Assembly (NCBI GenBank): GCA_029863005.1
Contig: JAOTWF010000019.1
Coordinates: 1-37,152, forward strand
Length of the DNA: 37,152 bases
Source: Gammaproteobacteria bacterium
GTDB lineage: Bacteria > Pseudomonadota > Gammaproteobacteria > Acidiferrobacterales > Sulfurifustaceae
Direction of reading: 5' to 3'
The notes below the pieces were generated by a model that was not told the DNA's origin, did no database searches, and worked only from the letters and a program-made list of their open reading frames with translations. Shown here piece after piece: positions 8,451 to 26,146 of this stretch; position 1 is the first letter of the stretch; each line of letters begins with the position of its first letter. A program made the position numbers and the translations under genes.

Positions 8451-8491
8451 GCTTTTATCTCCCAGAAAGTGTTGCGCCCATTAAGATGGCT

Positions 8492-11753: not shown

Positions 11754-12284
11754 TTAATCCAGTTTAATGCTGTGCCGTTCAACTTTTCCTGTCTTGGGCA
11801 GCGTCAGTTCCAGCATGCCGTCCTTGAAGCTTGCCTTCGCCTTAGTGCCATCCACGTCGGTGGGCAACGCCACCATGCGGTTGTAGTCATGAGTCGAGAT
11901 TTCGTGACGGTAGTAATCGCCCTTTTCTTGCTTTTCCTCATGCCGAGTGGAACCCTTAATCGTCAGCGTGTTATCGCTGACTGAAATGTCCAGATCCTTC
12001 TTGTCCACACCCGGCACCTCGGCCCGCACCACAACCTCATTATCCCGTTCAATGACATCGATCTTCGGCAGTTTGGCAAGCGTCGCGAACTCAGGAAATG
12101 ACGGCCATTTGAAACCCCATGGTCGCATCCAACCCTCTTGCATGAAGTTATCGAACATACGATCCATTTCTTCGAACGAGCCCCTCAAGCCTGATGATGT
12201 TGCCTTCTGAATTTCCTTCCCTTTTTCGGCGTGGGCTTGTTCCCCTTTACCTTCAGTCTTTCTGGATTCTGTCGTGGTTTCCAT
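11754..12284 (-). CDS. Hsp20/alpha-crystallin small heat-shock protein
   Basis: The 176-residue protein has a charged, flexible N-terminus, then the alpha-crystallin domain from about residue 68. This contains VVVRAEVPGVDKKDLDISVS, LTIKG and the closing GMLELTLPK (the G-x-L signature region). A short C-terminal tail, KVERHSIKLD, follows. Such proteins are ATP-independent holdases that form oligomers and keep stressed proteins soluble. It is first of a leftward group with the DUF2934/zinc-ribbon gene, the PfpI remnant and the VOC gene. A perfect FNR/Anr box lies 96 bp upstream of its start. I found no convincing sigma-32 promoter, so low oxygen rather than heat may be the trigger. Confidence 0.95.
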   Translation of the reverse strand: METTTESRKTEGKGEQAHAEKGKEIQKATSSGLRGSFEEMDRMFDNFMQEGWMRPWGFKWPSFPEFATLAKLPKIDVIERDNEVVVRAEVPGVDKKDLDISVSDNTLTIKGSTRHEEKQEKGDYYRHEISTHDYNRMVALPTDVDGTKAKASFKDGMLELTLPKTGKVERHSIKLD

Positions 12285-12581
12285 GATCGCACCTCTATTA
12301 CTCAGAGTTCACGAAATATCTCCCTTATGTTTATTAATATTAATTTTCTGAAAGATAATATTTAAAGGGAATATATGCTTTGATAATTATCAAAATACTC
12401 AAGCTGCCCACACTATTTTAACTTCATCGGGGCAATCAATGGATTTTATGACTTTAGTTCAGATTTAAAATGGAAACAGACTGGACCTAGTATTTTTAAC
12501 AATTTTGACACGCATTTTTTCTCTTCGACAATATCGGCATATGTCGCTGTGCCAAAATAAACACTCCACGAAATATCGCCG
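12285..12581. other. AT-rich intergenic region carrying the hsp20 promoter
   Basis: About 300 bp with markedly higher A+T than its flanks. It contains the FNR/Anr box at 12380-12393 and, for leftward transcription, a TATTAT -10 element at 12360-12355. The half towards 12581 holds no gene I can support. A rightward frame at 12505-12690 is antisense to the DUF6763-like gene and is not credible. Confidence 0.7.
12380..12393 (-). promoter_or_regulatory. Perfect FNR/Anr box upstream of hsp20
   Basis: TTGAT-AATT-ATCAA matches the FNR/Anr consensus fully and extends to a 16-bp perfect palindrome (12379-12394). A leftward -10 element, TATTAT, at 12360-12355 would place the start near 12347. The box is then centred about 40 bp upstream, the class II activator position. 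This would switch on hsp20 and the genes behind it when oxygen falls. The core also resembles part of a Fur box, but the exact 5-4-5 spacing favours FNR/Anr. Confidence 0.78.
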
Positions 12582-12923
12582 TCAATTTTCTTTGCGCTCT
12601 TCTTCCTCCTCTTCTGCTTCTTCCGTCGATATTACTTTCTCTTCCAATGGTTCAGTCCAGTCTTCAGGCGCCATGTCGGTTTCGGTATAGCCGAGATCGT
12701 CACGCTCGACGTCATCCACCGGTCCGGTCCAGTCCTCGGGTGGCTCAATAGCTTCGAGGGAAAGCTCATGCCAGTCGTCAAAATCCATTTCTTCCACATC
12801 GCCGTCGAAATGCTGAATTTCAACTGTGCCTTCCTCGTCGTCAATGGCGGTCACAAAAAATTGCTGGCCTTTGTCCAGATGCCGGTACCACTGTGATACC
12901 AGGGGTTTAAGCGTTGTGGTCAT
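12582..12923 (-). CDS. Acidic DUF6763-like protein
   Basis: The 113-residue protein opens with a small beta-rich module: VSQWYRHLDKGQQFFVTAID, then GTVEIQHFDGDVEEMDFDDW. This resembles a Tudor/SH3-like barrel. A very acidic, probably disordered tail follows, ending in a run of glutamates (EEAEEEEEERKEN). I believe it corresponds to DUF6763, known from gammaproteobacteria, but the name is from memory. No signal or membrane segment is seen. The start at 12923 is preceded by GAGGGGGAA. The 141-bp spacer to the divergent PRPP synthetase holds a perfect FNR/Anr box that could serve both genes. Confidence 0.7.
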   Translation of the reverse strand: MTTTLKPLVSQWYRHLDKGQQFFVTAIDDEEGTVEIQHFDGDVEEMDFDDWHELSLEAIEPPEDWTGPVDDVERDDLGYTETDMAPEDWTEPLEEKVISTEEAEEEEEERKEN

Positions 12924-12992
12924 GAATTTCCCCCTCTCTTGTCACTAGGCTCTTAATAAAGACAATTTAGTTACATTTAAGCATTAACATCA

Positions 12993-13006
12993 TTGATCAC
13001 TATCAA
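12993..13006 (+). promoter_or_regulatory. Perfect FNR/Anr box upstream of the PRPP synthetase paralogue
   Basis: TTGAT-CACT-ATCAA is an exact consensus match, with outer A/T pairs extending the palindrome to 16 bp. A TAGAAT -10 element at 13026-13031 predicts a start near 13038, so the box is centred about 39 bp upstream (class II geometry) and 65 bp from the ATG. The site is symmetrical and lies between divergent genes, so it may also act on the DUF6763-like gene. Confidence 0.8.
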
Positions 13007-13064
13007 TATTATTAATATAAAAATATAGAATAATTCTACGCGGAATTAACCGGTATCGAAAGCA

Positions 13065-14051
13065 ATGTCCCACGATACGCCAGTTCTTTTTGCCCTTCAG
13101 TCCAGCCGTTCGTTCGGTGAAGATGTGGCGCGGCAACTTGGCATCGCTCTGAGCGCGCACGAAGAAAGAGAATTCGAGGATGGTGAGCACAAATCCCGCC
13201 CGCTAGTGAATGTCCGTAACCAAGACGTCTTCGTCATTCAATCGCTTTATGGCGACAACCAACAGAGCGTCAACGACAAACTATTGCGCTTGTTGTTTTT
13301 CATCGGCGCGCTCAAGGATGCTTCTGCGAAATCCGTTACGGCCGTGGTTCCATATCTCGCCTACGCGCGCAAGGACGCCAAAACCCAGACGCGCGACCCG
13401 GTCACGACACGCTACATGGCGCAGTTGTTCGAGGCGGCGGGGACCGACCGTCTGCTCACCCTGGATGTACATAATCTCGCGGCGTTCCAAAATGCCTTCC
13501 GAATTCGCTCCGATCATCTGGAAGCAACGAAATTATTCGTGACACAGCTCGCGCCGCTGTTGGGCAACGAGCCGCACGTCACGGTGGTGTCGCCCGACAT
13601 CGGCGGCATCAAGCGCGCCGAGCGCTTCCGGCAGGCGCTGGCGCGCACTTTGGGTCGAGAATTGAACCTGGCCTTCATGGAAAAGTCACGAGCGAAGGGA
13701 ATCATGCGCACTGGCAAGCTCGCGGGCGACGTTGGGGGGGTTGCCATTATCATCGATGACCTGATCAGCACTGGTAAGACGTTGTTGCAGGCCGCGGTTG
13801 CCTGCCGCGAACGCGGCGCGATCAAGGTCCATGCCGCCGCCACCCATGGCCTGTTCCTCGGGGACACGGCTTCCCTTTTCGCTGCCAGCGAATTCGACAA
13901 GATCATCGTCACCGACACCATCCCGCCCTTCCGGCTCGACCCGGAAGCGGCGCGGCGCAAGCTCACGGTACTGTCCTGCGCGCCGTTGTTCGCCGAGGCG
14001 ATTCGGCGCATCCACGGCGGCGGCTCGCTGGTGGAGTTAATGGAAGTCTAG
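13065..14051 (+). CDS. Ribose-phosphate pyrophosphokinase paralogue (PRPP synthetase)
   Basis: PRPP synthetase moves diphosphate from ATP to ribose-5-phosphate. This 328-residue protein has the two-domain family layout: EFEDGE near 36, [20 protein letters not shown] at about 101-120 (the catalytic flexible loop, with K and R), the metal-site region [18 protein letters not shown], and the ribose-phosphate loop [12 protein letters not shown] at about 226-237. In the housekeeping enzyme that last loop usually reads DDMIDTAGT, so this is a divergent second copy. It is not in a nucleotide operon but beside an APH-fold kinase and two phosphoribosyltransferase genes, which suggests PRPP supply for a dedicated pathway. 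Its end overlaps the convergent kinase gene by 4 bp. Confidence 0.88.
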
Positions 14052-15076
14052 AATCTACCGCCATAACTATCCGCAAGACGCAGGTATTCTTCAGCCATGG
14101 CGCGCCAGCGAGGCCAGACATTGCGCCCGAGATCGCGCAGGTGCCAGATGGCGAGCCGGGCGCGCAGGCAGGCGCGGTGTGCCTTATAAAAATAGACAAG
14201 CGGCGGGAGTGGATAATCACCGGTAACGCGACGGTAAGCACCGAAAAGCTCCGGCTCCACTTGCGGCGCGCCCAGGCGCTCGCATTCCATGGCGAGAAAC
14301 GCCAACTCATCGACGGGATCGATAACGCGAAAAGTGCGATTGAATTCCAGGCGGTCGAAAATCACCGGCGGCGATTCCACACACACATGCTCTGGTCGCA
14401 GATCGCCATGGCCCTCTATGATCCTGCCGTCCGCGGCGCGGCGCTCGAGTAGCTCCGGCGAACGGTGCAGGAAATCCGTCTGCGCCCGATGCACGGACTC
14501 GACCAGCGCCGCGGGCAATCCATACGCCGGATCTGCCAGCTCCTCGTGATTGGCCCTGACCTTGTGCTCGTACAACCGACGGTATTCCTCGCCTTCGAGA
14601 TCGAGCGCGGCACTTTCTGAGTAAAACCGAGCCAGCACTTCCGCTACCGCGTGTGTTTCCATCGGCTCGAGAATATTCTGGCGGATCAGGGAATCCAGCA
14701 TCCGTTCCTTCGGCAAACGACGCATCTTCACGAGCCAGTCGATGATCTTGCCCTCCCCCCCGAGACGCATCTGTCCATGCCTGTCCAGCGCCAGGGGAAT
14801 GGCATCGAAATAAACGCCGGGAGCAAGACGCTGGTTCAGCCGCAGTTCTTCATGGCAGTTCCTTTTGCGCGCCGCCACCGTGCTGAAATCCAGATAGTCG
14901 TAGCGCACCGGCTTCTTGAGCTTGTAGGCATGTTGCGGTGTCAGGAAAACCCATGACATGTGGGTTTCGATGATCTCGATGCGCGCCGGTTTTTCAGGAT
15001 AGGTTTGCGGTTGCCGCAGAAAGGCAATCCTGGCCTCCTGATCTGGTTCCGTTTCGTGGCTGGTCAGGGGCTTCAT
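14048..15076 (-). CDS. Aminoglycoside-phosphotransferase-fold small-molecule kinase
   Basis: The 342-residue protein has an APH-type kinase fold. The N-lobe lysine region is [20 protein letters not shown]. The catalytic loop is [13 protein letters not shown], with Asp in HGD, and the metal-binding acid is in VIFDRLEFN, equivalent to the DFG motif. Many homologues carry a second P-loop ATPase domain at the C-terminus; here the protein stops after the APH domain. It probably phosphorylates a sugar or other small metabolite; antibiotic resistance is not implied. It is third in a leftward operon after the phosphoribosyltransferase and the hydrolase (4-bp overlap with the latter), placing it in the putative FNR-controlled PRPP module. 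Confidence 0.82.
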
Positions 15077-15735
15077 GTATTCCTTCTCTTTCCGGCCAAG
15101 TGGCGCTCAAACCAGTGAGCCGCGGTGGTGGCGACTTGTTCCAGCGTCCCAGGTTCCTCGAACAGGTGGGTAGCACCGGGGATGATTTTCAACTCCTTCT
15201 CGCAGCGCAACGCGCCATAGGCCTTGCGATTGAGAGCAATCACCTGATCATCGTTCCCGCCCACAATCAGCAGCGTCGGCGCCTGCACGCGCGGGAGATC
15301 CTCGAGCGCCAGGTCGGGACGCCCGCCGCGCGATACCACCGCGCGAACGTCCGGCCCCAGGGCGGCGGCCGCCTTGAGCGCGGCCGCCGCGCCGGTGCTG
15401 GCGCCAAAATAGCCAATCACCAGATACTGTGTGGCCGGCTCCTGATCGGCCCATTGCGTGGCGAACAACAGGCGTTGCGTGAGCAGATCGATGTCAAAGC
15501 GATTCTCGTAAATCCGGTCTTCCGCTTCGGTCAGAAGATCGAACAATAGCGTGGCGACGCCGCTCTGGCGTAACACATTGGCGACATAGTTGTTCCGCGG
15601 ACTCAGGCGACCGCTGCCGCTCCCGTGTGCGAACAGCGCAAGGCCCTTCGCGCCGGATGGGACTGCCAGCGCGCCCTGGTGGATAACAGCATCCATCGGG
15701 ATACCGACACTCTGCTCATGCTCACGGATGGCCAT
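15073..15735 (-). CDS. Dienelactone-hydrolase-type alpha/beta hydrolase
   Basis: The protein is 220 residues from the ATG at 15735, chosen for its GAGGAAA ribosome site; an ATG at 15780 would overlap the upstream gene more and add a Cys/Arg-rich stretch. The alpha/beta hydrolase elements are in order: LFAHGSGSGRLSPRN for the oxyanion region, nucleophile Ser113 in GYFGASTGAAA, the acid in VGGNDDQV, and the catalytic His in GATHLFEEPG. The substrate is unknown; this clade is commonly called dienelactone hydrolase without proof. It overlaps the phosphoribosyltransferase by 14 bp and the kinase by 4 bp, so the three products are translationally coupled. Confidence 0.88.
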   Translation of the reverse strand: MAIREHEQSVGIPMDAVIHQGALAVPSGAKGLALFAHGSGSGRLSPRNNYVANVLRQSGVATLLFDLLTEAEDRIYENRFDIDLLTQRLLFATQWADQEPATQYLVIGYFGASTGAAAALKAAAALGPDVRAVVSRGGRPDLALEDLPRVQAPTLLIVGGNDDQVIALNRKAYGALRCEKELKIIPGATHLFEEPGTLEQVATTAAHWFERHLAGKRRNT

Positions 15736-16384
15736 GTTTCCTCGCCTGCTCCTTCGCGACCACCGATCGCAGCAGGGCAATCACTTCTTCATCGGTAACC
15801 TGGAGGAATCGATCGTAATAGGCACCGACCGCGCCGAGATAGAAGGGCGAAGCATCCAGGACCATGAATTCATCGACTTCGCGTGATAGCCGTTCCACCG
15901 TATCGGCAGGGGCGACCGGCACCGCGACCACCAGGTGCTTCGGCCGGCGGCGCCGCGCATCGCGAATGGAAACCTCCATGGTAAGGCCCGTGGCAATGCC
16001 ATCGTCCACGATGATCGCCGTTTTTCCTTCCACGGCCGTCGGTTTGCGACCGCCCAGATACAGTTCGCGGCGGCGGCGCGCCTCGCCGCGCTCGGCCTCC
16101 ACCTCTTGCCGGAACCACTCTGGGTCCACGCGCGCGACTTCCTGCTGATTGCACACGAGCTCACCGTTTTCCACGACGGCGCAGATGGCATATTCGGGTT
16201 GCAGGGGATGTCCGATTTTTCGGGGAATAAGGAGATCGAGCGGCATGCCCAAGGCGCGCGCCACTTCCACGCCCAACACCACGCCGCCGCGCGGCAAGGC
16301 GTACACCACGCCCTCGTGTTTCTGGTATTTTTTCAGCGCTTTCGCAATTTGCTTACCCGCGTCGACGCGGTCCCGGAAGCGCAT
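15722..16384 (-). CDS. Phosphoribosyltransferase, stress-island type (copy 1)
   Basis: A 220-residue type I phosphoribosyltransferase fold. It opens with FRDRVDAGKQIAKAL. The diphosphate loop ALPRGGVVLGVEVA is at about 29-42. After a variable hood, the PRPP-binding loop IIVDDGIATGLTM is near residue 125. The two acidic residues and TG are the PRPP signature. The acceptor base is unknown: the hood lacks motifs of known purine, pyrimidine or nicotinate enzymes. Homologues are commonly found near stress genes. It is first of the leftward operon with the hydrolase and the kinase and has a perfect FNR/Anr box 63 bp upstream. Confidence 0.88.
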   Translation of the reverse strand: MRFRDRVDAGKQIAKALKKYQKHEGVVYALPRGGVVLGVEVARALGMPLDLLIPRKIGHPLQPEYAICAVVENGELVCNQQEVARVDPEWFRQEVEAERGEARRRRELYLGGRKPTAVEGKTAIIVDDGIATGLTMEVSIRDARRRRPKHLVVAVPVAPADTVERLSREVDEFMVLDASPFYLGAVGAYYDRFLQVTDEEVIALLRSVVAKEQARKHGHP

Positions 16385-16446
16385 GGCAAAGCCCCCATCT
16401 CCCCTGGATTAAAAAAACCAGATTATTCTTTTAGCGCGATTCGTCC

Positions 16447-16460
16447 TTGATAAGGATCAA
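16447..16460 (-). promoter_or_regulatory. Perfect FNR/Anr box upstream of the phosphoribosyltransferase-hydrolase-kinase operon
   Basis: TTGAT-AAGG-ATCAA is an exact consensus match. For leftward transcription an AATAAT -10 element at 16426-16421 predicts a start near 16413, about 40 bp from the box centre: the class II FNR geometry once more. The target would be the operon beginning at 16384. The site lies between that operon and the stop of the upstream AmmeMemoRadiSam A gene, which is transcribed in the same direction. Confidence 0.8.
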
Positions 16461-16487
16461 TATCGCGCTGTGGCCACAGAGGCGCGC

Positions 16488-17072
16488 TCACGGGATGGAT
16501 TCGACAGTGTAACGCTGCACACGAATGCGGTTCGACCAGTAGTCGGGCGGCAGGCCGGCCTTGTGCTTGAGCTGACGCAGGAATTCGCGTGGATCAGCCA
16601 GCTGATCCCACACCGAAGGCAGGAACGTGCCACGGCGGTAATCTTCTTCGAGGATCAGGCCATCCACCCGCGGACGCAGCTGCGTCAGTAGTTCCTCTTC
16701 CGTGGAAAATTGCAACGGTTCAGGCAGACTCAGCACGGAAATGTGTATATCGAGGCGCTCATATTCCGGCCAAGTGAGCGTTGAAAAACGAGGATCCCGA
16801 AACGCCGCGTTGTAAGCATTGCTCGCCACGTCCTGCACCAGCGTTTGACGCGCTTCGAGCGTGCCGATGCAGCCACGCAAGTTTTCATCGAGATGCAACG
16901 TAACAAACGATGCGCGCAGTACACGCAACGGTTCCGGATAATCGATTGCCCGAACGTTCAGCGTTTCTCCGCACAGGCCTTTCTTGATCGATTCTCCCGC
17001 CAACTGCAAAAGTTGCTGTTTGTGCGATGGCGTGAAGGCCGGGGAATTGTTACTCAATGATATAAGCGCCAT
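16488..17072 (-). CDS. amrA: AmmeMemoRadiSam system protein A (AMMECR1 domain)
   Basis: The protein is 194 residues from the ATG at 17072, which overlaps the end of the protein B gene by 23 bp and suggests translational coupling. An earlier ATG at 17126 lies further inside the upstream gene and adds residues unlike the family. The conserved AMMECR1 core, LRGCIGTLEARQTL, is at about 68-81, followed by SNAYNAAFRDPRF and the HISVLSLPEPL strand. AMMECR1-domain proteins are conserved from archaea to humans, without a settled biochemical role. In prokaryotes they co-occur with a MEMO protein and a radical SAM enzyme, both of which are adjacent here. Confidence 0.92.
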   Translation of the reverse strand: MALISLSNNSPAFTPSHKQQLLQLAGESIKKGLCGETLNVRAIDYPEPLRVLRASFVTLHLDENLRGCIGTLEARQTLVQDVASNAYNAAFRDPRFSTLTWPEYERLDIHISVLSLPEPLQFSTEEELLTQLRPRVDGLILEEDYRRGTFLPSVWDQLADPREFLRQLKHKAGLPPDYWSNRIRVQRYTVESIP

Positions 17073-17835
17073 AACCCACCACCCGGTCGCGTGGACCAGC
17101 CGTATCGCCAGAGTTGCGCAAATCAACGGTTTTGGCCTTGAGACCGAGTTTTTGTGCCAGAAGCAGCAAGCCGTTCACCGGATTGCGTCCGCAAGCAGAA
17201 TCGTAATCGATCGCTTCCGGCCGCAACTGCTCAATCGCCTGCGAGGTCGCGCGATCCATTTTCTGAGCGGTTTTATAGTCGTGGTAGTGGCTGAGATCCG
17301 AACTGATGACGATCAATGTTTCCTCGCCACCCCAAAGGAGATTGAGCACCTCGGCCACCTCATTGGGCTCGGCATCGCCCACCACCAGCGGCACCAAGTC
17401 GAAGTCTCCCAGCACTTCCTGGAGAAACGGCAGATGCACCTCAAGGCTGTGTTCCTGCGCATGAGCGACTTCCATTTCATGCACCTGGGGTAGATGGGAA
17501 ATTTTTTTGATGGCCTCCTGATCGATGCTAATGCGCCCCAGAGGGGTTTGGAAGTAATCCGCGCTGGAAAATGCCAGCCCCTGGAACCCGACTCGATGCG
17601 CGGGGCCGAGCAGCACGACGCGCGTGATCTGTCCGCGTGCTGACTGGACACGCGCGTAAGCGGAGGCGGCGACAGGGCCGGAGTAAATATAACCCGCATG
17701 GGGCGCAATAATGGCCTTCGGGATAGCGCCGCTCGCGGTCACCGCCGCGAGATAACCCGTCACCAGCGTGTGCAATTCGCCCGGATTGTCGGGGTAAAAC
17801 AGGCCGGCCACCGCCGGTTTACGTATTTTCGTCAT
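17050..17835 (-). CDS. amrB: AmmeMemoRadiSam system protein B (MEMO family)
   Basis: The 261-residue protein starts MTKIRKPAVAGLFYPDNPGEL, the usual opening, after an AGGA ribosome site. Metal-type histidines of the MEMO fold (related to class III extradiol dioxygenases) are visible in IIAPHAGYIYSG (about 41-52), LGPAHRVG, HAQEHSLEVHLPFL (about 145-158) and SDLSHYHDY. MEMO proteins have been linked to redox and copper handling in eukaryotes; the prokaryotic reaction is not established. The gene is upstream of protein A and divergent (160 bp) from the radical SAM gene, so the system is split across two transcription units with a shared control region. Confidence 0.94.
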   Translation of the reverse strand: MTKIRKPAVAGLFYPDNPGELHTLVTGYLAAVTASGAIPKAIIAPHAGYIYSGPVAASAYARVQSARGQITRVVLLGPAHRVGFQGLAFSSADYFQTPLGRISIDQEAIKKISHLPQVHEMEVAHAQEHSLEVHLPFLQEVLGDFDLVPLVVGDAEPNEVAEVLNLLWGGEETLIVISSDLSHYHDYKTAQKMDRATSQAIEQLRPEAIDYDSACGRNPVNGLLLLAQKLGLKAKTVDLRNSGDTAGPRDRVVGYGAYIIE

Positions 17836-17995
17836 GACAGTTCCTGCAGAAACATGATTATAACAATGTGCCCACCCGGCGTTATTTTCAAGTGAAACCG
17901 CGCAGGCGTAGTATGAACGTTGATTTGTGGGGCCAATGGCCGCATTTACCTTTTAACTTCGTCACCGCGCTGTTCTTTGCGCAGTTTTTCAGTCC

Positions 17996-19099
17996 ATGGA
18001 AACGAAAATTCTCGATTCAGAGTCGGTGGTCCCGACGCGCTACTGGCACAGGCTCGACGACGGGCGTGTGCAGTGCGATGTCTGCCCGCGTTACTGCAAA
18101 TTGCATGAGGGTCAGCGCGGGCTTTGTTTCGTGCGTGGTAACTATAACAATCAGATAGTCCTGACGACTTATGGACGCTCCAGCGGTTATTGCGTCGATC
18201 CCGTCGAAAAAAAGCCGCTCAATCATTTTCTTCCCGGCACACCGATCCTGTCGTTCGGTACCGCCGGCTGCAATCTCGCCTGCAAATTCTGCCAGAATTG
18301 GGACATCAGCAAGTCGCGTGAACTCGACACGCTGATGGACCAGGCCTCGCCCGAGGCCATTGCGCAGGCGGCCAAGAAGCTCGATTGCCGCAGCGTGGCC
18401 TACACCTATAACGATCCGGTGATATTTCTGGAATACGCCATTGACGTGGCCAAGGCCTGCCACGAGGTTGGCATCAAGTCGGTGGCGGTAACAGCGGGCT
18501 ACATGTGCGACGAGCCACGGCGTGAGTTCTATCAATACATGGACGCGGCCAACGTGGACCTGAAGGCCTTTACCGAGGATTTCTACTGGAAGGTAACGGG
18601 CTCGCATTTGCAACCCGTGCTCGACACGCTCAAATATCTGAAACATGAAACCAAAGTATGGTTTGAACTCACGACGCTGCTCATTCCCGGCCTCAATGAC
18701 GCGGAAAAGGAAACCGAGGAAATGACGCAATGGGTGGTGGAAAATCTCGGTCCGGATGTGCCGATGCATTTCACCGCTTTTCATCCGGACTGGAAAATGC
18801 GTGACATTCCGGCCACGCCCGCATCCACGCTCATCAAGGCGCGTCAAATTGCGATGAAGAACGGCGTGCGCTATGCCTATACTGGCAATGTGCACAATGA
18901 AGAGGGAGATTCCACTTTTTGTCATCAATGCGGAATCCGCCTCATCGGGCGTGACTGGTACAACATGACGGCGTGGAACCTCGACGCCGTTGGGAAATGC
19001 AAATCCTGCGGCACCCCCTGTGCCGGCGTGTTCGAGGCTCAACCCGGCAACTGGGGCGCGCGGCGACTGCCGGTGCGCCTGGCCAACTTCGCCGCCTGA
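17996..19099 (+). CDS. amrS: AmmeMemoRadiSam system radical SAM enzyme
   Basis: The 367-residue protein has its [4Fe-4S] cluster motif CNLACKFC (C92, C96, C99) after the conserved SFGTAGC region. The N-terminal part has additional cysteines (C27, C30, C34, C44), as in pyruvate-formate-lyase-activating-enzyme relatives. The C-terminal part has CHQC and a CKSCGTPC pair, perhaps for auxiliary cluster or metal binding. VAVTAGYMC and FTAFHPDWKM are typical of the family. The clusters are oxygen sensitive, which suits an island with FNR boxes. The ATG at 17996 has only a weak ribosome site. It is divergent from protein B; the substrate is unknown, and a modification made with A and B is the usual proposal. 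Confidence 0.94.
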   Translation: METKILDSESVVPTRYWHRLDDGRVQCDVCPRYCKLHEGQRGLCFVRGNYNNQIVLTTYGRSSGYCVDPVEKKPLNHFLPGTPILSFGTAGCNLACKFCQNWDISKSRELDTLMDQASPEAIAQAAKKLDCRSVAYTYNDPVIFLEYAIDVAKACHEVGIKSVAVTAGYMCDEPRREFYQYMDAANVDLKAFTEDFYWKVTGSHLQPVLDTLKYLKHETKVWFELTTLLIPGLNDAEKETEEMTQWVVENLGPDVPMHFTAFHPDWKMRDIPATPASTLIKARQIAMKNGVRYAYTGNVHNEEGDSTFCHQCGIRLIGRDWYNMTAWNLDAVGKCKSCGTPCAGVFEAQPGNWGARRLPVRLANFAA

Positions 19100-19136
19100 T
19101 CTCATTTCGTCTGCCTTCTCGCCACGGTTTGCCGGT

Positions 19137-19167
19137 TTGACAACCGTCATGTTTCCGCGGGTATAAC
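19137..19167 (+). promoter_or_regulatory. Promoter of the phosphoribosyltransferase-archease-rtcB run
   Basis: TTGACA at 19137-19142 and TATAAC at 19162-19167 make a recognisable sigma-70 promoter with a long (19 bp) spacer. The -35 element is embedded in TTGAC-AACC-GTCAT, which has FNR-like symmetry but departs from the consensus at three positions. A basal promoter is the safer call; FNR-family control is only a possibility. Confidence 0.45.
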
Positions 19168-19185
19168 GGTGTTATATGTAAATTC

Positions 19186-19893
19186 ATGCCAGGCTCTGCG
19201 AACAGGGTCGTCGAGCTTCCTGAAATGCGCAACCGGGGACGGGTGTTCCGTGACCGAACGCACGCAGGGGTGGTATTGGCCGATATGCTTGGAACGTTCC
19301 ACGGGACGCACACGCTGGTGCTCGCGATACCCGCGGGCGGCGTACCGGTGGCGGCGGAAATCTCAAAACAACTCGGACTTGCGTTCGATTTGGCGGTGGT
19401 GAGCAAAATCACGCTCCCCTGGAACACGGAATCGGGATACGGCGCCGTGGCATTCGACGGCACCGTGCGGCTCAACCGGGACCTGATCGCGGCACTGGGC
19501 CTGCCGGAGACAGCGGTTCAGGAAGGTATCGCGCGAACGAAGGAAAAGGTGACGCGGCGCGTCAAACAGCTGTGGGGAGACCACCGTCTGCCCGACCTGA
19601 CGCGACGTGCCGTCATCCTGGTCGACGATGGACTGGCATCCGGCATTACAATGCACACCGCCATCGACGCCTTGCATCACCTTGAAGCACACAAAGTCGT
19701 CATTGCCATACCGACCGGGCACGCCGAAGCCGTCGCGCGAATGGCCGCCATCGTTGAATCGCTGTACTGTCCGAACGTTCGCCAGGGACGGAGTTTCGCC
19801 GTGGCCGATGCCTACGAACAGTGGACAGATGTGAGCGAGGCAACGGTCGCCGGGATCATGCAATCTATTTCCCGCACATGTCACACGGCATGA
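19186..19893 (+). CDS. Phosphoribosyltransferase, stress-island type (copy 2)
   Basis: A second type I phosphoribosyltransferase, 235 residues. Its order is ELPEMRNRGRVFRDRTHAG near the N-terminus, the loop AIPAGGVPVAAEI, and the PRPP loop VILVDDGLASGITMHTAIDAL near residue 140. It is clearly paralogous to the copy at 15722-16384 but divergent, and it keeps the two acidic residues and the SG of the loop. The acceptor is unknown. No good ribosome site precedes 19186 and the predicted transcript start is close, so translation might be leaderless or begin at a later ATG (19225). It overlaps archease by 4 bp, which ties a PRPP-using enzyme to the RNA ligase system. Confidence 0.86.
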   Translation: MPGSANRVVELPEMRNRGRVFRDRTHAGVVLADMLGTFHGTHTLVLAIPAGGVPVAAEISKQLGLAFDLAVVSKITLPWNTESGYGAVAFDGTVRLNRDLIAALGLPETAVQEGIARTKEKVTRRVKQLWGDHRLPDLTRRAVILVDDGLASGITMHTAIDALHHLEAHKVVIAIPTGHAEAVARMAAIVESLYCPNVRQGRSFAVADAYEQWTDVSEATVAGIMQSISRTCHTA

Positions 19894-20312
19894 GCGTCAT
19901 GCGCTGGGAACATTTTCCACACGAGGCCGACATGGGGATACGCGGCATCGGCAATACCCGGGACGAGGCCTTCGAGCAGGCGGCGCTCGCCATGACCGCC
20001 ATCATCACCGACCCCACGCAGGTCAAAGCCGTGGAAAAAGTGGAAATCACGCGTCAGGCGCCAGACGATGAATTGCTGCTGGTGGACTGGCTGAATGCCC
20101 TGGTTTATGAGATGGCCACGCGCAAACTGCTTTTCGGTCGTTTTGAAGTTCACGTGAAAGACCACACACTGACTGCCCGTGCCTTTGGCGAGCCGATGGA
20201 TTTCACAAAGCATCATATGGTTGTCGAGATCAAGGGGGCAACCTATACCGCGCTGCGGGTCGCACAGGAGAGCAACGGAGAATGGGTTGCCCAGTGTATC
20301 GTTGATGTATAG
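19890..20312 (+). CDS. Archease (RtcB activator)
   Basis: The protein is 140 residues from the ATG at 19890, which forms an ATGA overlap with the stop of the preceding gene; an ATG at 19899 is also possible. The opening WEHFPHEADMGIRGIG matches the archease signature, with acidic residues that bind the activating metal. DDELLLVDWLNALVYEMATRK and the C-terminal VEIKGATYTALRV follow. Archease speeds guanylylation of RtcB and allows multiple turnover. It lies 17 bp upstream of rtcB, a classical pairing, so function is confidently inferred. The canonical C-terminal KAxTYH motif is changed to KGATYT. Confidence 0.9.
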   Translation: MSVMRWEHFPHEADMGIRGIGNTRDEAFEQAALAMTAIITDPTQVKAVEKVEITRQAPDDELLLVDWLNALVYEMATRKLLFGRFEVHVKDHTLTARAFGEPMDFTKHHMVVEIKGATYTALRVAQESNGEWVAQCIVDV

Positions 20313-20329
20313 CCGGGAGTGATGCCGCC

Positions 20330-21760
20330 ATGGATATCGCGCTCTTTGCCCGTCACACCGATTACGAATGGGAGATTGCTCCGCAGGGCACGATGCGCGT
20401 GCCCGCGATAATCTACGCGGACGAAACCCTGATCCGTGCAATGGACCACAAGGTGTACGAACAGGTCTGCAATGTTGCCACCCTGCCCGGCATTGTGAAA
20501 GCGTCGTACGCCATGCCCGATGCCCATTGGGGCTACGGCTTTCCCATCGGCGGCGTGGCCGCTTTTGATCCCCACGAAGGCGGTGTGGTATCGGCGGGCG
20601 GTGTCGGATTCGACATTTCCTGTGGCGTGCGTTGCTTGCATACCGGCCTCAACACCGAGGATGTCATGGCGGCTCAGAAAATGCTTGCCGATACCTTATA
20701 TAGAGAAATTCCGGCGGGACTGGGCAGCACCGGGGGCATCCGTCTGAACCAATCCGAAATGGACGCGATGCTTTTGGGCGGCGCAGCCTGGGCCGTGAAA
20801 AAGGGCTACGGCAACGTGGCTGATCTCGATCACATCGAGGAGCATGGCCAAATGCGCGGTGCGCGTCCGGATTACGTGTCCGAGCATGCGAAGAAACGCC
20901 AACGCGATGAGATGGGCACGCTCGGTAGCGGGAATCATTATCTCGAGATTCAGAAGGTCGCGCAGCTCTTCGACACGAAAACAGCGAGCGTGTATGGCAT
21001 TCGCGAGAACGACGTCGTCGTCAGCATTCACTGCGGGTCGCGCGGCCTCGGGCATCAGATCGGCACCGAGTTCCTGAAAGAGATGGTGATGGCCGCATCA
21101 CTGTACGGCATCACGCTTCCCGATCGTGAGCTTGCCTGCGCGCCGATCAACTCCCCCTTGGGCGAGAAATACCTGGGCGCCATGCGAGCCGCCATCAATT
21201 GCGCGCTGGCCAACCGCCAGATTCTGACTCATCTGGTGCGAGACGCCTTTTCGCAAGTCATCCCGAAGGCGCGGCTGCCCCTGCTTTATGACGTTTCCCA
21301 TAACACCTGCAAGGTCGAGGAACACGTCGTCGACGGCAGGGTGCGCAAGCTTTACGTACACCGCAAGGGCGCCACGCGCGCTTTCGGTCCCGGCCATCCG
21401 GATATTCCCGATGTCCTGCGGCCTGTCGGTCAGCCGGTATTGATCGGCGGTTCGATGGGCACCGGCTCCTATATACTCACCGGCGCCGCGAAAAACGAGG
21501 CATTGTCATTCAGCTCCGCCTGTCACGGCGCGGGGCGCGCCATGAGCCGGCACCAGGCGTACAAGACCTGGAAGGGCCGGCAGGTCATCGATGACCTGGC
21601 CGCGCGCGGCATTCTGATCCGCAGCCCCTCCGGCCGCGGCGTGGCCGAGGAGGCGCCGGGTGCTTACAAGGACGTGTCCGCCGTGGTGGACGCCGCCGAG
21701 GCCGCCGGGCTGGCGCGTAAAGTGGCGCGCCTCGAGCCGCTCGTCTGCATCAAGGGATGA
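20330..21760 (+). CDS. rtcB: RNA-splicing ligase RtcB
   Basis: RtcB joins RNA 2',3'-cyclic phosphate or 3'-phosphate ends to 5'-OH ends, using GTP and Mn2+. The 476-residue length is typical. Metal ligands are visible in GVGFDISCGVRC (D95, C98), GTLGSGNHYLEIQ, SIHCGSRGLGHQIG and DVSHN. The guanylylated histidine is in CHGAGRAMSR (about 399). The C-terminus, ARLEPLVCIKG, is family-like. Bacterial RtcB acts in repair of broken tRNA or rRNA, and here it sits with archease in a stress island rather than with rtcA and rtcR. DUF72 and PolX genes follow with 2-3 bp gaps, forming a nucleic-acid repair operon. Confidence 0.97.
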   Translation: MDIALFARHTDYEWEIAPQGTMRVPAIIYADETLIRAMDHKVYEQVCNVATLPGIVKASYAMPDAHWGYGFPIGGVAAFDPHEGGVVSAGGVGFDISCGVRCLHTGLNTEDVMAAQKMLADTLYREIPAGLGSTGGIRLNQSEMDAMLLGGAAWAVKKGYGNVADLDHIEEHGQMRGARPDYVSEHAKKRQRDEMGTLGSGNHYLEIQKVAQLFDTKTASVYGIRENDVVVSIHCGSRGLGHQIGTEFLKEMVMAASLYGITLPDRELACAPINSPLGEKYLGAMRAAINCALANRQILTHLVRDAFSQVIPKARLPLLYDVSHNTCKVEEHVVDGRVRKLYVHRKGATRAFGPGHPDIPDVLRPVGQPVLIGGSMGTGSYILTGAAKNEALSFSSACHGAGRAMSRHQAYKTWKGRQVIDDLAARGILIRSPSGRGVAEEAPGAYKDVSAVVDAAEAAGLARKVARLEPLVCIKG

Positions 21761-21763
21761 ACC

Positions 21764-22498
21764 ATGGCCAGCCGCGCCTATATCGGCACCAGCGGTTGGA
21801 ATTACGATTCGTGGCGCGATGACTTTTATCGTGGCAATTCGCGCAAGAACTGGCTTCAGTACTGCGCCGAACGTTTCAGCGGCATAGAAGTCAACGCTAC
21901 CTTCTACCGGCTGCAAAGCCAGGAAACATTCCGTCGCTGGCGAGACAATACGCCGGCCAATTTTCGTTTCACCATCAAGGGCAACCGCTACCTGACACAC
22001 AACAAAAAACTTGCCGACCCGCTGGCTGCTATTCGCCTTGAACGCGACCGCGCCAAGGGCCTGGGCCACAAGCTCTCGGCCGTTGTTTGGCAATTGCCGC
22101 GGCCGTTTCGCAAAAACATGGATCGTCTTCGCCAATTCGCCAGGGCGCTGAAATCCTGGCCCCAAGCCCGGCATGCAATCGAATTTCGCCATGATTCCTG
22201 GTTCGATGACGAGGTCGCCGAATGCCTGCACGCCCACCGGCTGGCCGTTTGTCAATCGGATGCCGCTGATTGGGCTTTGTGGGACGCCGTGACCACTGAC
22301 ATGGTATACGTCCGGTTGCACGGACATGCTGTTACCTATGCCTCGGCCTACGGCATGAAAGAATTGCGACAGTGGGCCAAACGTATCCGCCGCTGGCTCC
22401 GTCAGGGTCGCGACGTCCACGTATATTTCGACAACGATGCCAGGGGGGCGGCGCCGCAAAATGCCCTGGAGCTGATCGCGCTGGTCAGAAGGAACTGA
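21764..22498 (+). CDS. DUF72 domain-containing protein (TIM-barrel)
   Basis: The 244-residue protein starts RAYIGTSGWNYDSW after the initiating Met-Ala-Ser, then has GIEVNATFYRLQS at about 42-54, FRFTIKGNRYLTH and AIEFRHDSWFDDEV. All are signatures of the DUF72 (YecE-like) family, which adopts a TIM-barrel fold. Later VYVRLHGHA and VYFDNDARGAAPQNALEL also match. The biochemical function is unknown, although conserved Asn, Glu and His residues line a pocket in the family. Translation is coupled: 3 bp after rtcB and 2 bp before polX. Confidence 0.93.
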   Translation: MASRAYIGTSGWNYDSWRDDFYRGNSRKNWLQYCAERFSGIEVNATFYRLQSQETFRRWRDNTPANFRFTIKGNRYLTHNKKLADPLAAIRLERDRAKGLGHKLSAVVWQLPRPFRKNMDRLRQFARALKSWPQARHAIEFRHDSWFDDEVAECLHAHRLAVCQSDAADWALWDAVTTDMVYVRLHGHAVTYASAYGMKELRQWAKRIRRWLRQGRDVHVYFDNDARGAAPQNALELIALVRRN

Positions 22499-22500
22499 TC

Positions 22501-24228
22501 ATGCCTGTTCACAACGCCGACATTGCCAAGATTTTTGAGGAGATCGCCGACCTCCTTGAAATAGAAAATGCGAATCCCTTCCGTGTACGCGCCTACCGCA
22601 ATGCCGCGCGCCAGCTGCAAGGCATGGGTGAGTCGGTCGCGGAGATGATATCCCGAGGGGAGGACCTGACCGGATTGCCCGGCATTGGTGATGATCTCGC
22701 GGGCAAGATCGCGGAAATCGTAGAAACCGGCGATTCAAGGTTACTGCAGAAACTGCAGAAACAAACCCCGCCCAGCATCACGGAACTGCTCAAGATCCCG
22801 GGTCTGGGGCCCAAACGGGTGCGTGCGCTCTATCATGAGCTCGACGTGCAAACCGTCGAGCAGCTTGCGCGCGCCGCCCAGGACGGACGCATCCGCGAAC
22901 TGCCGGGCTTTGGCACCAAAACCGAGCAGACCATTTTGCAGGCCATCACGGCGCATGTGACCAAGCAGAAACGCTTCAAGCTGGCGGTGGCGGCCCAATA
23001 TGCCGAGCCGCTAAAGAAGTATCTGGAAAAAATCCCGGATGTCAGCCAAGTGATGCTCGCGGGTTCCTATCGGCGTTTCAAGGAGACCGTCGGTGATATC
23101 GACATTCTGGTAACAGCGACCAATGCTGAAAAGGTGATGGATCGGTTCGTTGCCTACGACGAGGTCAAAAAAATAAGTGCCAAGGGCGGTACGCGCGCCA
23201 CCGTGATTCTCCAATCCGGCCTGCAAGTGGACGTGCGAGTGGTGAAGAAAGAAAGTCTCGGTGCCGCGCTGCAATACTTCACCGGTTCCAAGGCGCACAA
23301 CATTGAAATCCGCCGGCTCGCCCAGGAGCGCAAACTCAAGATCAGCGAATACGGCGTCTTCAAAGGCAACAAGCCTGTTTCCGGCAGCACGGAGGAATCC
23401 GTCTACCGCGCTATCGGCCTGCCGTGGATTGCGCCCGAACTGCGCGAGAACCGTGGCGAAATCGAGGCGGCTCGAGCCGGTAAGCTGCCGAAACTCGTGG
23501 AATTCGCCGATCTTAAGGGTGATCTGCACGCTCACACCCAAGCTACCGACGGCCACGATACCCTGCGGAAGATGGCCGAGGCCGCACGCGAACACGGCTT
23601 CGAATACATCGCCATTACCGAGCACTCGCGCCGGCTCACCGTTGCGCATGGGCTCGACCCGCAGCGTCTGCGAAAGCAGATTCTCGAGATCGACAAACTG
23701 AATGGCCAACTCAAGAATATCACCCTATTAAAGGGCATTGAAGTGGACATCCTCGAGGACGGCCGCCTTGATCTTCCCAACGACGTGCTTTCCGAGTTGG
23801 ATCTCGTGGTTGGTGCGGTGCACAGCAAATTCCATCTGTCGCGCGCGAAGCAGACCGAACGCATCCTGCGCGCCATGGATCATCCATACTTCACCATCCT
23901 GGCTCATCCCACCGGACGGCTTATCGAAAATCGTGAACCCTACGATGTGGATATGCTCAGGATCATCCGACAGGCACGCGAACGTGGTTGTTTTCTGGAA
24001 CTCAACGCGCACCCGGAGCGAATGGACCTGCTGGACATCTACTGCCAGATGTCGCGCGACGAAGAGGTGCTCGTGGCCATCAATTCCGATGCGCACAGGA
24101 TTCAGGACTTTGATAATCTCGTCTATGGCATAGGTCAGGCCCGGCGTGGCTGGCTGGAAAAAAAGGATGTGCTCAATACCCGGCCGCTTAAGCTGCTGCG
24201 ATCACTGCTTAAGCGTACAATGACTTGA
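22501..24228 (+). CDS. polX: DNA polymerase/3'-5' exonuclease PolX
   Basis: The 575-residue protein starts at 22501; an open frame to 22372 is only overlap with DUF72. Its domains are: an N-terminal lyase-like region with helix-hairpin-helix motifs (LTGLPGIGDDLAGKIAEI and LKIPGLGPKRVRALY), an X-family nucleotidyltransferase centre with AGSYRRFKETVGDIDILV (two metal Asp at about 200) and the third Asp in LQVDVRVV, and a C-terminal PHP domain (GDLHAHTQATDG near 340, ITEHSRR, AHPTGRL, NSDAHR). Bacterial PolX fills short gaps in base-excision repair and has Mn-dependent exonuclease activity in the PHP domain. All catalytic motifs look intact. Confidence 0.95.
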   Translation: MPVHNADIAKIFEEIADLLEIENANPFRVRAYRNAARQLQGMGESVAEMISRGEDLTGLPGIGDDLAGKIAEIVETGDSRLLQKLQKQTPPSITELLKIPGLGPKRVRALYHELDVQTVEQLARAAQDGRIRELPGFGTKTEQTILQAITAHVTKQKRFKLAVAAQYAEPLKKYLEKIPDVSQVMLAGSYRRFKETVGDIDILVTATNAEKVMDRFVAYDEVKKISAKGGTRATVILQSGLQVDVRVVKKESLGAALQYFTGSKAHNIEIRRLAQERKLKISEYGVFKGNKPVSGSTEESVYRAIGLPWIAPELRENRGEIEAARAGKLPKLVEFADLKGDLHAHTQATDGHDTLRKMAEAAREHGFEYIAITEHSRRLTVAHGLDPQRLRKQILEIDKLNGQLKNITLLKGIEVDILEDGRLDLPNDVLSELDLVVGAVHSKFHLSRAKQTERILRAMDHPYFTILAHPTGRLIENREPYDVDMLRIIRQARERGCFLELNAHPERMDLLDIYCQMSRDEEVLVAINSDAHRIQDFDNLVYGIGQARRGWLEKKDVLNTRPLKLLRSLLKRTMT

Positions 24229-24325: not shown

Positions 24326-26146
24326 ATGACCACTGATCCCTTCCTCACCGAAATTTCGCGTCACATCTGGGACAGCAAGTACCGGTTCCGCGACGGCGAT
24401 CAGGTTCATGACCGGACCGTGGACGATACCTGGCATAGGGTCGCGCGCACGCTGGCGGCGGTGGAAAAAGACGACGGGAATCGCTGGGAAAATTATTTTT
24501 ACGAAGCCTTGCGCGATTTCCGGTTCCTGCCCGGTGGCAGGATTCAGGCAGGGGCCGGTACCGGTCGGCGCGTAACGCTGTTCAATTGCTTCGCCATGGG
24601 AACCCTCGAAGACTCGATGGATGGAATATTCGATGGGCTCAAAGAAGGCGCACTCACCATGCAGCAGGGGGGCGGCGTGGGGTATGACTTCTCGACGTTG
24701 CGCCCAAGCGGCACACAGGCCAGAAGCGTCGGGACTGTCGCCTCCGGCCCGGTTTCCTTCATGCAGATCTGGGATGCCATGTGCGGGACATTGCTGTCCA
24801 CCGGCGCGCGGCGCGGCGCGATGATGGCCACGCTGCGCTGCGATCATCCCGACATTGAGATGTTCATTGCTGCCAAGCGCGACAGCCAGGCCTTGCGCCG
24901 GTTCAACCTCTCGGTGCTGGTGACGGATGCCTTCATGGAGGCGGTGCACGGCGACCGGGATTGGGCGCTGGTCTTTCCGCAGGAGTCCTCCCCCGCAGGA
25001 ACGGAAACGGTTATGCGGCCCTGGTCGGGTGCAGCGGCGCCGATACGCTGCCGTATTCACCGCCGAGTCCGGGCGCGGGAATTGTGGGACAAACTGATGC
25101 GGGCGACTTATGAATATGCCGAGCCAGGCGTTTTGTTCATCGACCGCATCAACCAGGCCAATAATCTCTGGTATCGCGAACAAATTTGTACCACGAATCC
25201 TTGCGGCGAGATTCCGTTGCCACCGTATGGGGCATGTGATCTCGGTTCCCTCAACCTAACCGCCTTCGTGCACGATCCGTTTACCGACAAGGCACGACTT
25301 GATCTTGACGGCATCAGCAAAGCCACGGCCTTTGCCACGCGCATGATGGACAACGTCATCGATGCTTCCCAATTCCCGCTGGACAAGCAGGCAGCCCAGG
25401 CGCGGGGTACGCGTCGCATCGGGCTCGGGCTAACGGGACTGGCGGACACACTAATCATGCTCGGCCTGCACTATGCTGAAAAACCGGCGCGCGAGCTGGC
25501 GGCACGCGTGATGCAGGCTATCTGTCATAGTGCCTACCGGACCTCGATCGCCCTGGCGGAAGAAAAAGGCGCCTTCCCGTTTTTCGATCGGGAAAAATTC
25601 CTGAAAGGAAAATTCATTCAGAGCCTGCCGCACGATATTCGGGACGGAATTTCCAGGTATGGCTTGCGCAACAGCCACCTGACCGCGATCGCACCCACCG
25701 GCACCATCAGCCTGCTGGCCAACAACATTTCCAGTGGGCTGGAGCCAGTGTATAAATTCAACTACGTGCGACGCGTGCTGGAGCTGGATGGCCGTCACAC
25801 GGAGCATCGTTTGACTGATTTTGCACTTCAGCGCAGGCGCGAACGTGAGGAGGGAGGAAATCTGCCGCCGGCGTTCGTGGACGCGGGCGCACTCGCCCCC
25901 TCGGCGCACCTTGGCATGCAATCGGCACTTCAGCCTTACGTCGACAATTCTATCTCGAAAACTATCAACGTCCCGCGCGAATACCGCTTCGAAGACTTCA
26001 AAGAGATTTACCAACAGGCCTATGATCTGGGACTCAAGGGATGCACCACCTTCCGCCCCAATCCCGTGACCGGTGAAGTCCTGCGTGAGGGTTTAGATGG
26101 CGAATCCGCGCCGCATTGCTGCACCGTCGAACGCGAGGCGGACTGA
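24326..26146 (+). CDS. nrdJ: Adenosylcobalamin-dependent (class II) ribonucleotide reductase
   Basis: The enzyme makes deoxyribonucleotides with a B12-generated radical, so it works with or without oxygen. This is a short form of 606 residues without an N-terminal ATP cone. Visible elements are LPGGRIQAGAG, the first disulfide cysteine in LFNCFAMG, GGGVGYDFSTLRPSG, STGARRGAMM, the active-site TNPCGEIPLPPYGACDLGS (Asn, radical Cys and Glu, then the second disulfide Cys), and the phosphate-binding APTGTISLLA. It ends in HCCTVEREAD, whose Cys pair probably reduces the active-site disulfide. Being the last gene after polX (97-bp gap), it may have its own promoter. Confidence 0.93.
   Translation: MTTDPFLTEISRHIWDSKYRFRDGDQVHDRTVDDTWHRVARTLAAVEKDDGNRWENYFYEALRDFRFLPGGRIQAGAGTGRRVTLFNCFAMGTLEDSMDGIFDGLKEGALTMQQGGGVGYDFSTLRPSGTQARSVGTVASGPVSFMQIWDAMCGTLLSTGARRGAMMATLRCDHPDIEMFIAAKRDSQALRRFNLSVLVTDAFMEAVHGDRDWALVFPQESSPAGTETVMRPWSGAAAPIRCRIHRRVRARELWDKLMRATYEYAEPGVLFIDRINQANNLWYREQICTTNPCGEIPLPPYGACDLGSLNLTAFVHDPFTDKARLDLDGISKATAFATRMMDNVIDASQFPLDKQAAQARGTRRIGLGLTGLADTLIMLGLHYAEKPARELAARVMQAICHSAYRTSIALAEEKGAFPFFDREKFLKGKFIQSLPHDIRDGISRYGLRNSHLTAIAPTGTISLLANNISSGLEPVYKFNYVRRVLELDGRHTEHRLTDFALQRRREREEGGNLPPAFVDAGALAPSAHLGMQSALQPYVDNSISKTINVPREYRFEDFKEIYQQAYDLGLKGCTTFRPNPVTGEVLREGLDGESAPHCCTVEREAD

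Follow-up and report, generated by a model that had tools for sequence, protein, structure and literature searches.

What do the three proteins of an AmmeMemoRadiSam system do together, and are they governed by a regulator of low-oxygen metabolism? Both questions are raised by a stretch of 37,152 nucleotides (the window) from contig JAOTWF010000019.1 of a gammaproteobacterial assembly of the Sulfurifustaceae (GCA_029863005.1), in which genes for an AMMECR1 protein (AmrA), a Memo-like protein (AmrB) and a radical S-adenosylmethionine (SAM) enzyme (AmrS) lie among boxes for the regulator FNR. The trio is an ordinary, complete AmmeMemoRadiSam system, a known kind in its usual form. The reading we favor, with a probability of about 0.55, is that this single set would act as one complex or one short pathway and would be expressed from its own promoters, outside FNR control.

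Identity, inheritance and layout of the trio

The initial annotation of the window described a complete AmmeMemoRadiSam system, and profile searches agree: all three genes are full-length and the products score far over the NCBIfam cut-offs, with 197 bits for AmrA (TIGR04335, cut-off 99), 269.5 bits for AmrB (TIGR04336, cut-off 26) and 666 bits for AmrS (TIGR04337, cut-off 220, model positions 1-349 of 349). Pfam agrees in each case (PF01871 for AmrA), the genes are co-located, and the CX3CX2C motif, the LRGCIG motif and the metal-site residues are all present. The gene boundaries and the shared 160-bp region given in that annotation are likewise correct, with the exception of the start of amrA, which is probably the ATG at 17072 and not the upstream TTG; this start yields a 23-bp overlap with amrB. 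Both of these genes run leftward, while amrS runs rightward from the far side of the 160-bp gap. The genome (2.45 Mb, 95% complete) holds one AMMECR1, one AmrB and one AmrS gene at the thresholds used. Its nearest named relatives are Sulfuricaulis metagenome-assembled genomes, with 90% AmrS identity, and genome G082 is given as belonging to the same genus. Consistent with the earlier statement that the reaction of the trio is unknown, no reaction was reported in the literature searched, and we know of none for any AmmeMemoRadiSam system.

Among 274 genomes of the class, AmrS was present in 141, AmrB in 139 and AmrA in 138. With four weak-AmrS genomes left out, AmrS and AmrB occurred together in 135 genomes, AmrS only in 2, AmrB only in 4 and neither in 133, an agreement (phi 0.956, Fisher P ~2e-70) that, like all co-occurrence statistics from genome samples given here, ignores kinship. 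The 137 AmrS genomes so defined exclude G056, G088, G193 and G245, whose best matches have E values of 1e-66 to 1e-73, and include G116, with a weak best match of 272 bits, as well as G123 and G186, with partial AmrS. The trio also occurs in both bacteria and archaea among control genomes. These results indicate that AmrA, AmrB and AmrS are largely one inherited unit.

Gene layout was compared across 160 loci, comprising the 80 nearest named relatives and 80 AmrS places of the class sample, with some genomes in twice; 116 of these are non-redundant at <80% AmrS identity, and statements on conservation cover bacteria and one IMG/VR contig. AmrB was found within the fetched stretch at 119 loci, and AmrS stood alone at 41. 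In the class loci AmrB lay outside the stretch (up to 8 kb on each side of amrS) in 14 of 80 cases, and all 14 genomes carried it elsewhere; furthermore, of 17 named genomes chosen for the most part because no AmrB had been seen beside AmrS, 15 carried it. Where both were in the stretch, amrB and amrS stood back to back within 1.5 kb at 112 of 119 loci, the other seven being divergent but farther apart (2), on the same strand (4) or otherwise placed (1). The two divergent units pointed out in the initial annotation are therefore real but are the norm of the family. Mean pairwise identity over 110 loci was highest for AmrS (70%), followed by AmrB (57%) and AmrA (52%). On a plasmid of Ideonella dechloratans (L291, NZ_CP088082.1), amrB and amrS occupy the same strand, flanked on one side by a SIR2-family gene and on the other by an arsenic-resistance cluster.

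Fusions were also encountered. AmrB and AmrA form a single protein in 11 of 160 loci, and three-protein fusions occur in two domain orders. The order AmrS-AmrA-X-AmrB is found as a single 1078-codon open frame in L270 (G338) and L271 (G359), two genomes of the phylum of L097, where X comprises ~210 residues, with no Pfam family reported for that of L270. The order Memo, AMMECR1, radical SAM is found in a 733-aa open reading frame (L199:3905-6106) of IMG/VR contig IMGVR_UViG_3300024262_001784. If that contig is a virus, the whole system is carried by a virus; a D12-type DNA methyltransferase gene lies near the fusion. Long frames around AmrS or AmrB in L286 and L288 look like overlapping reading frames and were not counted as fusions, and the long AmrS frames in L132-L134 overlap amrB on the opposite strand. 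Some AmrB-AmrA fusions end in VSY in place of VGY (L211/L284, L215/L285, L218, L225, L281 and L282), and those with a longer stretch adjoin a diverged AmrS of about 300-400 bits, a sequence pattern pointing to a distinct subtype.

Protein architecture and proposed mechanism

The radical SAM motif CX3CX2C of AmrS corresponds to C92/C96/C99. The initial annotation had drawn attention to additional Cys groups near the two termini of the protein, and these are genuine: C27/C30/C34/C44 and C309/C312/C338 are invariant (1.00) and C335 nearly so (0.99) in 135 aligned sequences. Both groups are kept in more distant AmrS proteins (L270, L271, L282, L284, L225, L285 and L054) and are thus characteristic of the family in general; the C-terminal group is missing from the L199 fusion, and two distant rows end with their stretch. 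The AlphaFold model of AmrS (mean predicted local distance difference test score, pLDDT, 89.4; predicted template modeling score, pTM, 0.90) is closest to pyruvate formate-lyase (PFL)-activating enzyme, with Z 22.0 and a root-mean-square deviation of 2.6 A over 225 aligned residues. RlmN is the next family (Z 16.3), and Foldseek also puts the PFL-activating enzyme first. The match spans residues 58-296, so both Cys-bearing ends lie outside it.

AmrB and AmrA match structures of human MEMO1 and archaeal AMMECR1, respectively. The metal-site residues H46, H80 and C215 of AmrB, each conserved at 1.00 in 111 rows, correspond in alignments to H49, H81 and C244 of MEMO1; an excerpt of PMC11081632 names these MEMO1 residues as ligands of iron or copper. 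The His-His-Glu/Asp iron ligands of extradiol (PCAD) dioxygenases were not found in AmrB, in which the third ligand position is C215. In AmrA, C68 of the LRGCIG motif is invariant in 111 rows; an excerpt of PMC5502304 describes this motif as altered in a human AMMECR1 patient family. The predicted AmrB-AmrA model has a pTM of 0.80.

The fold of AmrS raises the question of whether it activates a glycyl radical, either in a PFL-type enzyme or in the C-terminal RVVGYG motif of AmrB, where V252-V253-G254-Y255 is conserved at 1.00 in 111 rows. The wide structural margin by which PFL-activating enzyme comes first and the conservation of that motif are in keeping with such a role. The remaining evidence makes it highly improbable. 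AmrS reaches 61.2 bits against the activase family TIGR02493, for which the cut-off is 231.75, and is also below the cut-offs of the other activase families listed. No PFL-like enzyme was found in the window's genome (95% complete), and such enzymes occur in 5 of 274 class genomes, 2 of which are among the 141 with AmrS; partners are thus rare and absent here, so that AmrS does not serve a canonical PFL-type enzyme as activase in this organism. The structure prediction makes the RVVGYG motif part of a beta strand, Ser replaces Gly (VSY) beside diverged AmrS proteins in L211/L284, L215/L285, L225 and L282, and MEMO1 has VSY as well. Gly254 was therefore rejected as a glycyl-radical site, as it does not track AmrS. 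Two of the 15 Memo-only genomes in the phylum of L097 had readable ends at this position, with Gly in L210 (G381) and Ala in L213 (G304); in the others, the profile match stopped before the Gly254 end.

Within the favored reading, AmrA, AmrB and AmrS would act on a common substrate, either as a single complex or in one short pathway, as suggested by genes that are inherited as a set, stand with amrB-amrA usually opposite amrS, and are sometimes fused. AmrS would use its CX3CX2C cluster, on a barrel resembling that of PFL activase, to make a 5'-deoxyadenosyl radical and start radical chemistry. Metal may be bound by the group of four Cys residues near its N terminus and by the CxxC...CxxC ribbon at its C terminus, probably in the form of an auxiliary Fe-S site and of zinc. 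AmrB, with a MEMO1-like His2Cys iron site, would perform a second, metal-dependent step, and AmrA may bind or present the substrate. A modified nucleobase or an isoprenoid-like molecule ranks first as substrate, tentatively and with less confidence than the reading as a whole. Burroughs et al. reportedly proposed nucleobase or isoprenoid modification in 2019, in a study that PMC7159879 and PMC8431788 cite. An excerpt of PMC3857490 places an archaeal Memo homologue in the mevalonate operon of most archaea, which would be in line with an isoprenoid substrate.

Regulatory sites and the clade-specific neighborhood

Three perfect TTGATN4ATCAA boxes occur in the window, all between called genes and all within 4.1 kb. 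The whole 2.45-Mb genome contains 22, so that 0.33 would be expected in the window (Poisson P ~0.005). A wider pattern, TTGAYN4RTCAA, shows that two of the sites, upstream of the phosphoribosyltransferase gene PRT1 and between DUF6763 and Prs, are conserved in the window and in the close relatives L032, L034 and L117; the stretch of the remaining relative, L033, is without these genes, and the count is accordingly four of four clade members. A weaker site before a second phosphoribosyltransferase gene, PRT2, recurs at the same place with the same mismatch in L032 and L034 (three of three including the window). An identical copy of the site at the NMD3-like gene is present in L117; a start of that gene at the ATG at 8486 would probably be too early. 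The genome encodes a Crp/FNR-family regulator (L192) with an N-terminal CX2CX5C, which we take to be the cluster motif of FNR. The FNR-linked island of the initial annotation is thus well founded with respect to the neighboring units.

The trio itself differs. Its divergent promoter region contains no FNR-type site even with two mismatches in any of five clade members (the window and four relatives), and no conserved FNR box was found there that would make the trio part of an FNR regulon. Across relatives, sites with at most one mismatch occur in 9 of 112 AmrB-AmrS gaps, a number reached by 1 of 200 shuffled copies (first-order Markov copies, as also for the narrower pattern and the de novo motif search), and near-match density is 0.41 per kb in these gaps vs 0.23 in other gaps of the same loci; the narrower pattern is found in 4 of 112 gaps vs 1.3 expected. 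A candidate extended -10 element for amrB-amrA, read from the sequence by inference, has no exact match in relatives and is absent from the output of a consensus scan of 15700-20400, which returned three promoter-like sites where shuffles gave 1.7; one of the three is in the gap, on its AmrS side (17834-17861). De novo motif search of 82 non-redundant AmrB-AmrS gaps yielded no new operator, and the top dyads look like parts of sigma-70 promoters. FNR control of the trio in this clade therefore appears unlikely, and the trio would be transcribed from its own promoters, merely adjoining FNR-controlled units in the Sulfuricaulis-like clade. FNR-type control concerns the neighboring units, and the results give no ground for extending it to the trio.

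These results bear on the proposal that the trio belongs to a low-oxygen response, co-regulated with its FNR-controlled neighbors and needed mainly under anoxia. The three perfect boxes nearby, the FNR-like protein, the conserved sites at PRT1, DUF6763-Prs and PRT2, and the somewhat enriched near-match sites in relatives' gaps are consistent with it. Set against these are the site-free promoter region of all five clade members, the low count for the narrower pattern, and a block of stress-gene neighbors confined to this clade. Furthermore, anaerobic ribonucleotide reductase (NrdD) is not associated with AmrS, being present in 14 of 141 genomes with it and 12 of 133 others (Fisher P 0.84), and named carriers include Methylobacter and Methylocaldum. 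Methanotrophs such as these are aerobes. We regard the low-oxygen proposal as unlikely, and the initial suggestion of a function under oxygen scarcity finds no support. Constitutive expression had been named as a result that would speak against it; expression is not always constant, as an excerpt of PMC7701253 lists amrB, with a value of 2.03, among genes differentially transcribed in Bifidobacterium longum with inflammatory factors. An OmpR-related table in an excerpt of PMC9861516 includes amrB of Acidithiobacillus caldus, and neither passage concerns oxygen.

The stress-gene neighborhood is specific to the clade. Members of 16 island families were found near the trio in 18 of 140 loci of at least 9 kb; four of these are the clade (L032, L033, L034 and L117), with one or two matches at 29-70% identity in each of the remaining 14. 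A preference for stress neighbors, the absence of which had been declared in advance to count against an oxygen-linked role, is accordingly not seen. The strongest of the 14 involve a PolX/PHP DNA-polymerase gene, which stands directly beside amrS or amrB in L118, L128 and L149 (55-70%) and is also part of the island in the window (22372-24228) and L032. Among 116 non-redundant loci, the neighbor clusters were FliK (18), an unannotated long protein (16), pentapeptide-repeat proteins (15), an FlhB-like C-terminus (15), the ParA family (11), ABC-transporter ATPases (10), RimP (8) and NusA (7). No functional partner stands out in this clustering, and the flagellar/chemotaxis and rimP-nusA sets appear to reflect conserved gene order along the chromosome.

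The genes that follow amrS suggest a further proposal, in which the trio would work with archease and RtcB in RNA modification or repair. The order amrS, (PRT2), archease, RtcB is found in the window, L032, L033 and L117, and L034 ends after archease. Elsewhere, an RtcB-family gene lies ~1.2 kb from amrB-amrS on a Segatella hominis plasmid of a far phylum (L290, NZ_CP137560.1), and by eye RtcB was placed ~1 kb from amrB-amrA in G302 and 6.5 kb from amrS in G295. In the phylum of L097, RtcB was present in 68 of 77 AmrS genomes vs 39 of 72 others, and 35 of 39 carriers of a high-scoring RtcB form (at least 540 bits, a threshold chosen once the scores had been seen) had AmrS in the 149-genome phylum sample of G288. 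An excerpt of PMC6393860 gives PIN and Zn-ribbon neighbors for archaeal AMMECR1. These points amount to a weak hint towards RNA, as archease or RtcB occurs near amrS in 4 of 140 loci, all from this clade, and RtcB is common without AmrS. An RNA role is, like the low-oxygen one, unlikely. Still less probable is the stronger form, an RNA-modifying or repair module tied to archease and long RtcB that stands in this clade's FNR-type island with two phosphoribosyltransferases; if true, RNA repair would be reset when oxygen runs out in the Sulfuricaulis-like clade.

Several findings weigh against the favored reading of one complex or short pathway outside FNR control. In 149 genomes of the phylum of L097, Memo and AmrS occurred together in 72, Memo only in 15, AmrS only in 5 and neither in 57, a looser link than in the class, as measured with a family (PF01875) wider than AmrB. 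Eukaryotes retain Memo and AMMECR1 and are not known to have this radical SAM enzyme, which indicates that AmrS is not essential to every function of AmrA and AmrB. The 9 of 112 gaps with near-match sites make FNR control of the trio possible in some relatives. The complex, substrate and activity are putative, being drawn from gene sets, fusions and metal residues, and fusions demonstrate association, not chemistry. Finally, the archaeal Memo MJ0403 failed tests for mevalonate-pathway decarboxylase activity (excerpt of PMC3857490).

Table 1. Features of the window, in window coordinates.
Feature	Position	Strand	Basis or context
FNR-type site TTGACCTGCATCAA	8492-8505		start of NMD3-like gene
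Perfect FNR box	12380-12393		upstream of Hsp20
Perfect FNR box	12993-13006		between DUF6763 (-) and Prs (+)
Phosphoribosyltransferase PRT1, first gene of left-hand unit	15722-16384	-	PF00156
Perfect FNR box TTGATAAGGATCAA	16447-16460		upstream of leftward PRT1-DLH-hyp14048, downstream of amrA
AmrA, AMMECR1 protein, 194 aa	16488-17072	-	TIGR04335, PF01871, conservation
AmrB, Memo-like protein, 261 aa	17050-17835	-	TIGR04336, ligand alignment to human MEMO1
Divergent promoter region of amrB-amrA and amrS, 160 bp	17836-17995		no FNR-type site with <=2 mismatches
Candidate extended -10 TGTTATAAT for amrB-amrA	17857-17865	-	read from sequence, inference only
AmrS, radical SAM enzyme, 367 aa	17996-19099	+	TIGR04337, conservation, model
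Weak FNR-type site TTGACAACCGTCAT	19137-19150		before PRT2-archease-RtcB, 1 mismatch to TTGAYN4RTCAA
Phosphoribosyltransferase PRT2, start of right-hand unit	19186-19893	+	PF00156
Archease	19890-20312	+	PF01951
RtcB-family RNA ligase, 476-aa form	20330-21760	+	PF01139, 570 bits

Beside the FNR boxes (11754-16384 and 24326-26146) are genes for Hsp20, Prs, a phosphoribosyltransferase, a dienelactone-hydrolase-like protein, a 342-aa protein with no Pfam match and a ribonucleotide reductase, a set that presumably resembles the mycobacterial DosR regulon. The gene for the 342-aa protein shares 4 bp with that of the hydrolase, whose frame overlaps the phosphoribosyltransferase frame by up to 59 bp.

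Significance and comparison with known systems

For two of the three proteins, the human relatives (MEMO1 and AMMECR1) are linked to disease. The survey reveals three proteins that are largely one inherited unit and PFL-like partners that are nearly absent from the class, and natural single-chain versions would fix the stoichiometry in one expressible protein. Together, these findings narrow the experiments to be done.

By its description, the island can be likened to the lxa locus of Burkholderia cenocepacia, a low-oxygen locus with a heat-shock and a metallo-beta-lactamase protein (excerpt of PMC6127331). The main text of that paper contains none of the terms 'phosphoribosyltransferase', 'ribonucleotide' and 'dienelactone', and 'AMMECR1' and 'radical SAM' are absent from PMC9104464. 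At the protein level, AmrS has its core fold (residues 58-296) and the CX3CX2C motif in common with PFL-activating enzyme (3CB8, 3C8F), and differs from it by the added N- and C-terminal Cys modules. AmrB has its fold and His/His/Cys metal site in common with MEMO1 (7KQ8, 3BCZ), which is without the NSGDTAG...RVVGYG end that AmrB keeps. The fold is also common to extradiol dioxygenases such as DesB, in which the Glu/Asp ligand takes the place of the Cys found in AmrB and, according to an excerpt of PMC11081632, in MEMO1. Compared with AmmeMemoRadiSam systems elsewhere, the trio has the commonest gene order and no difference was found in the trio itself; what is particular to this clade is its neighbors only, the FNR-type island and the archease-RtcB pair.

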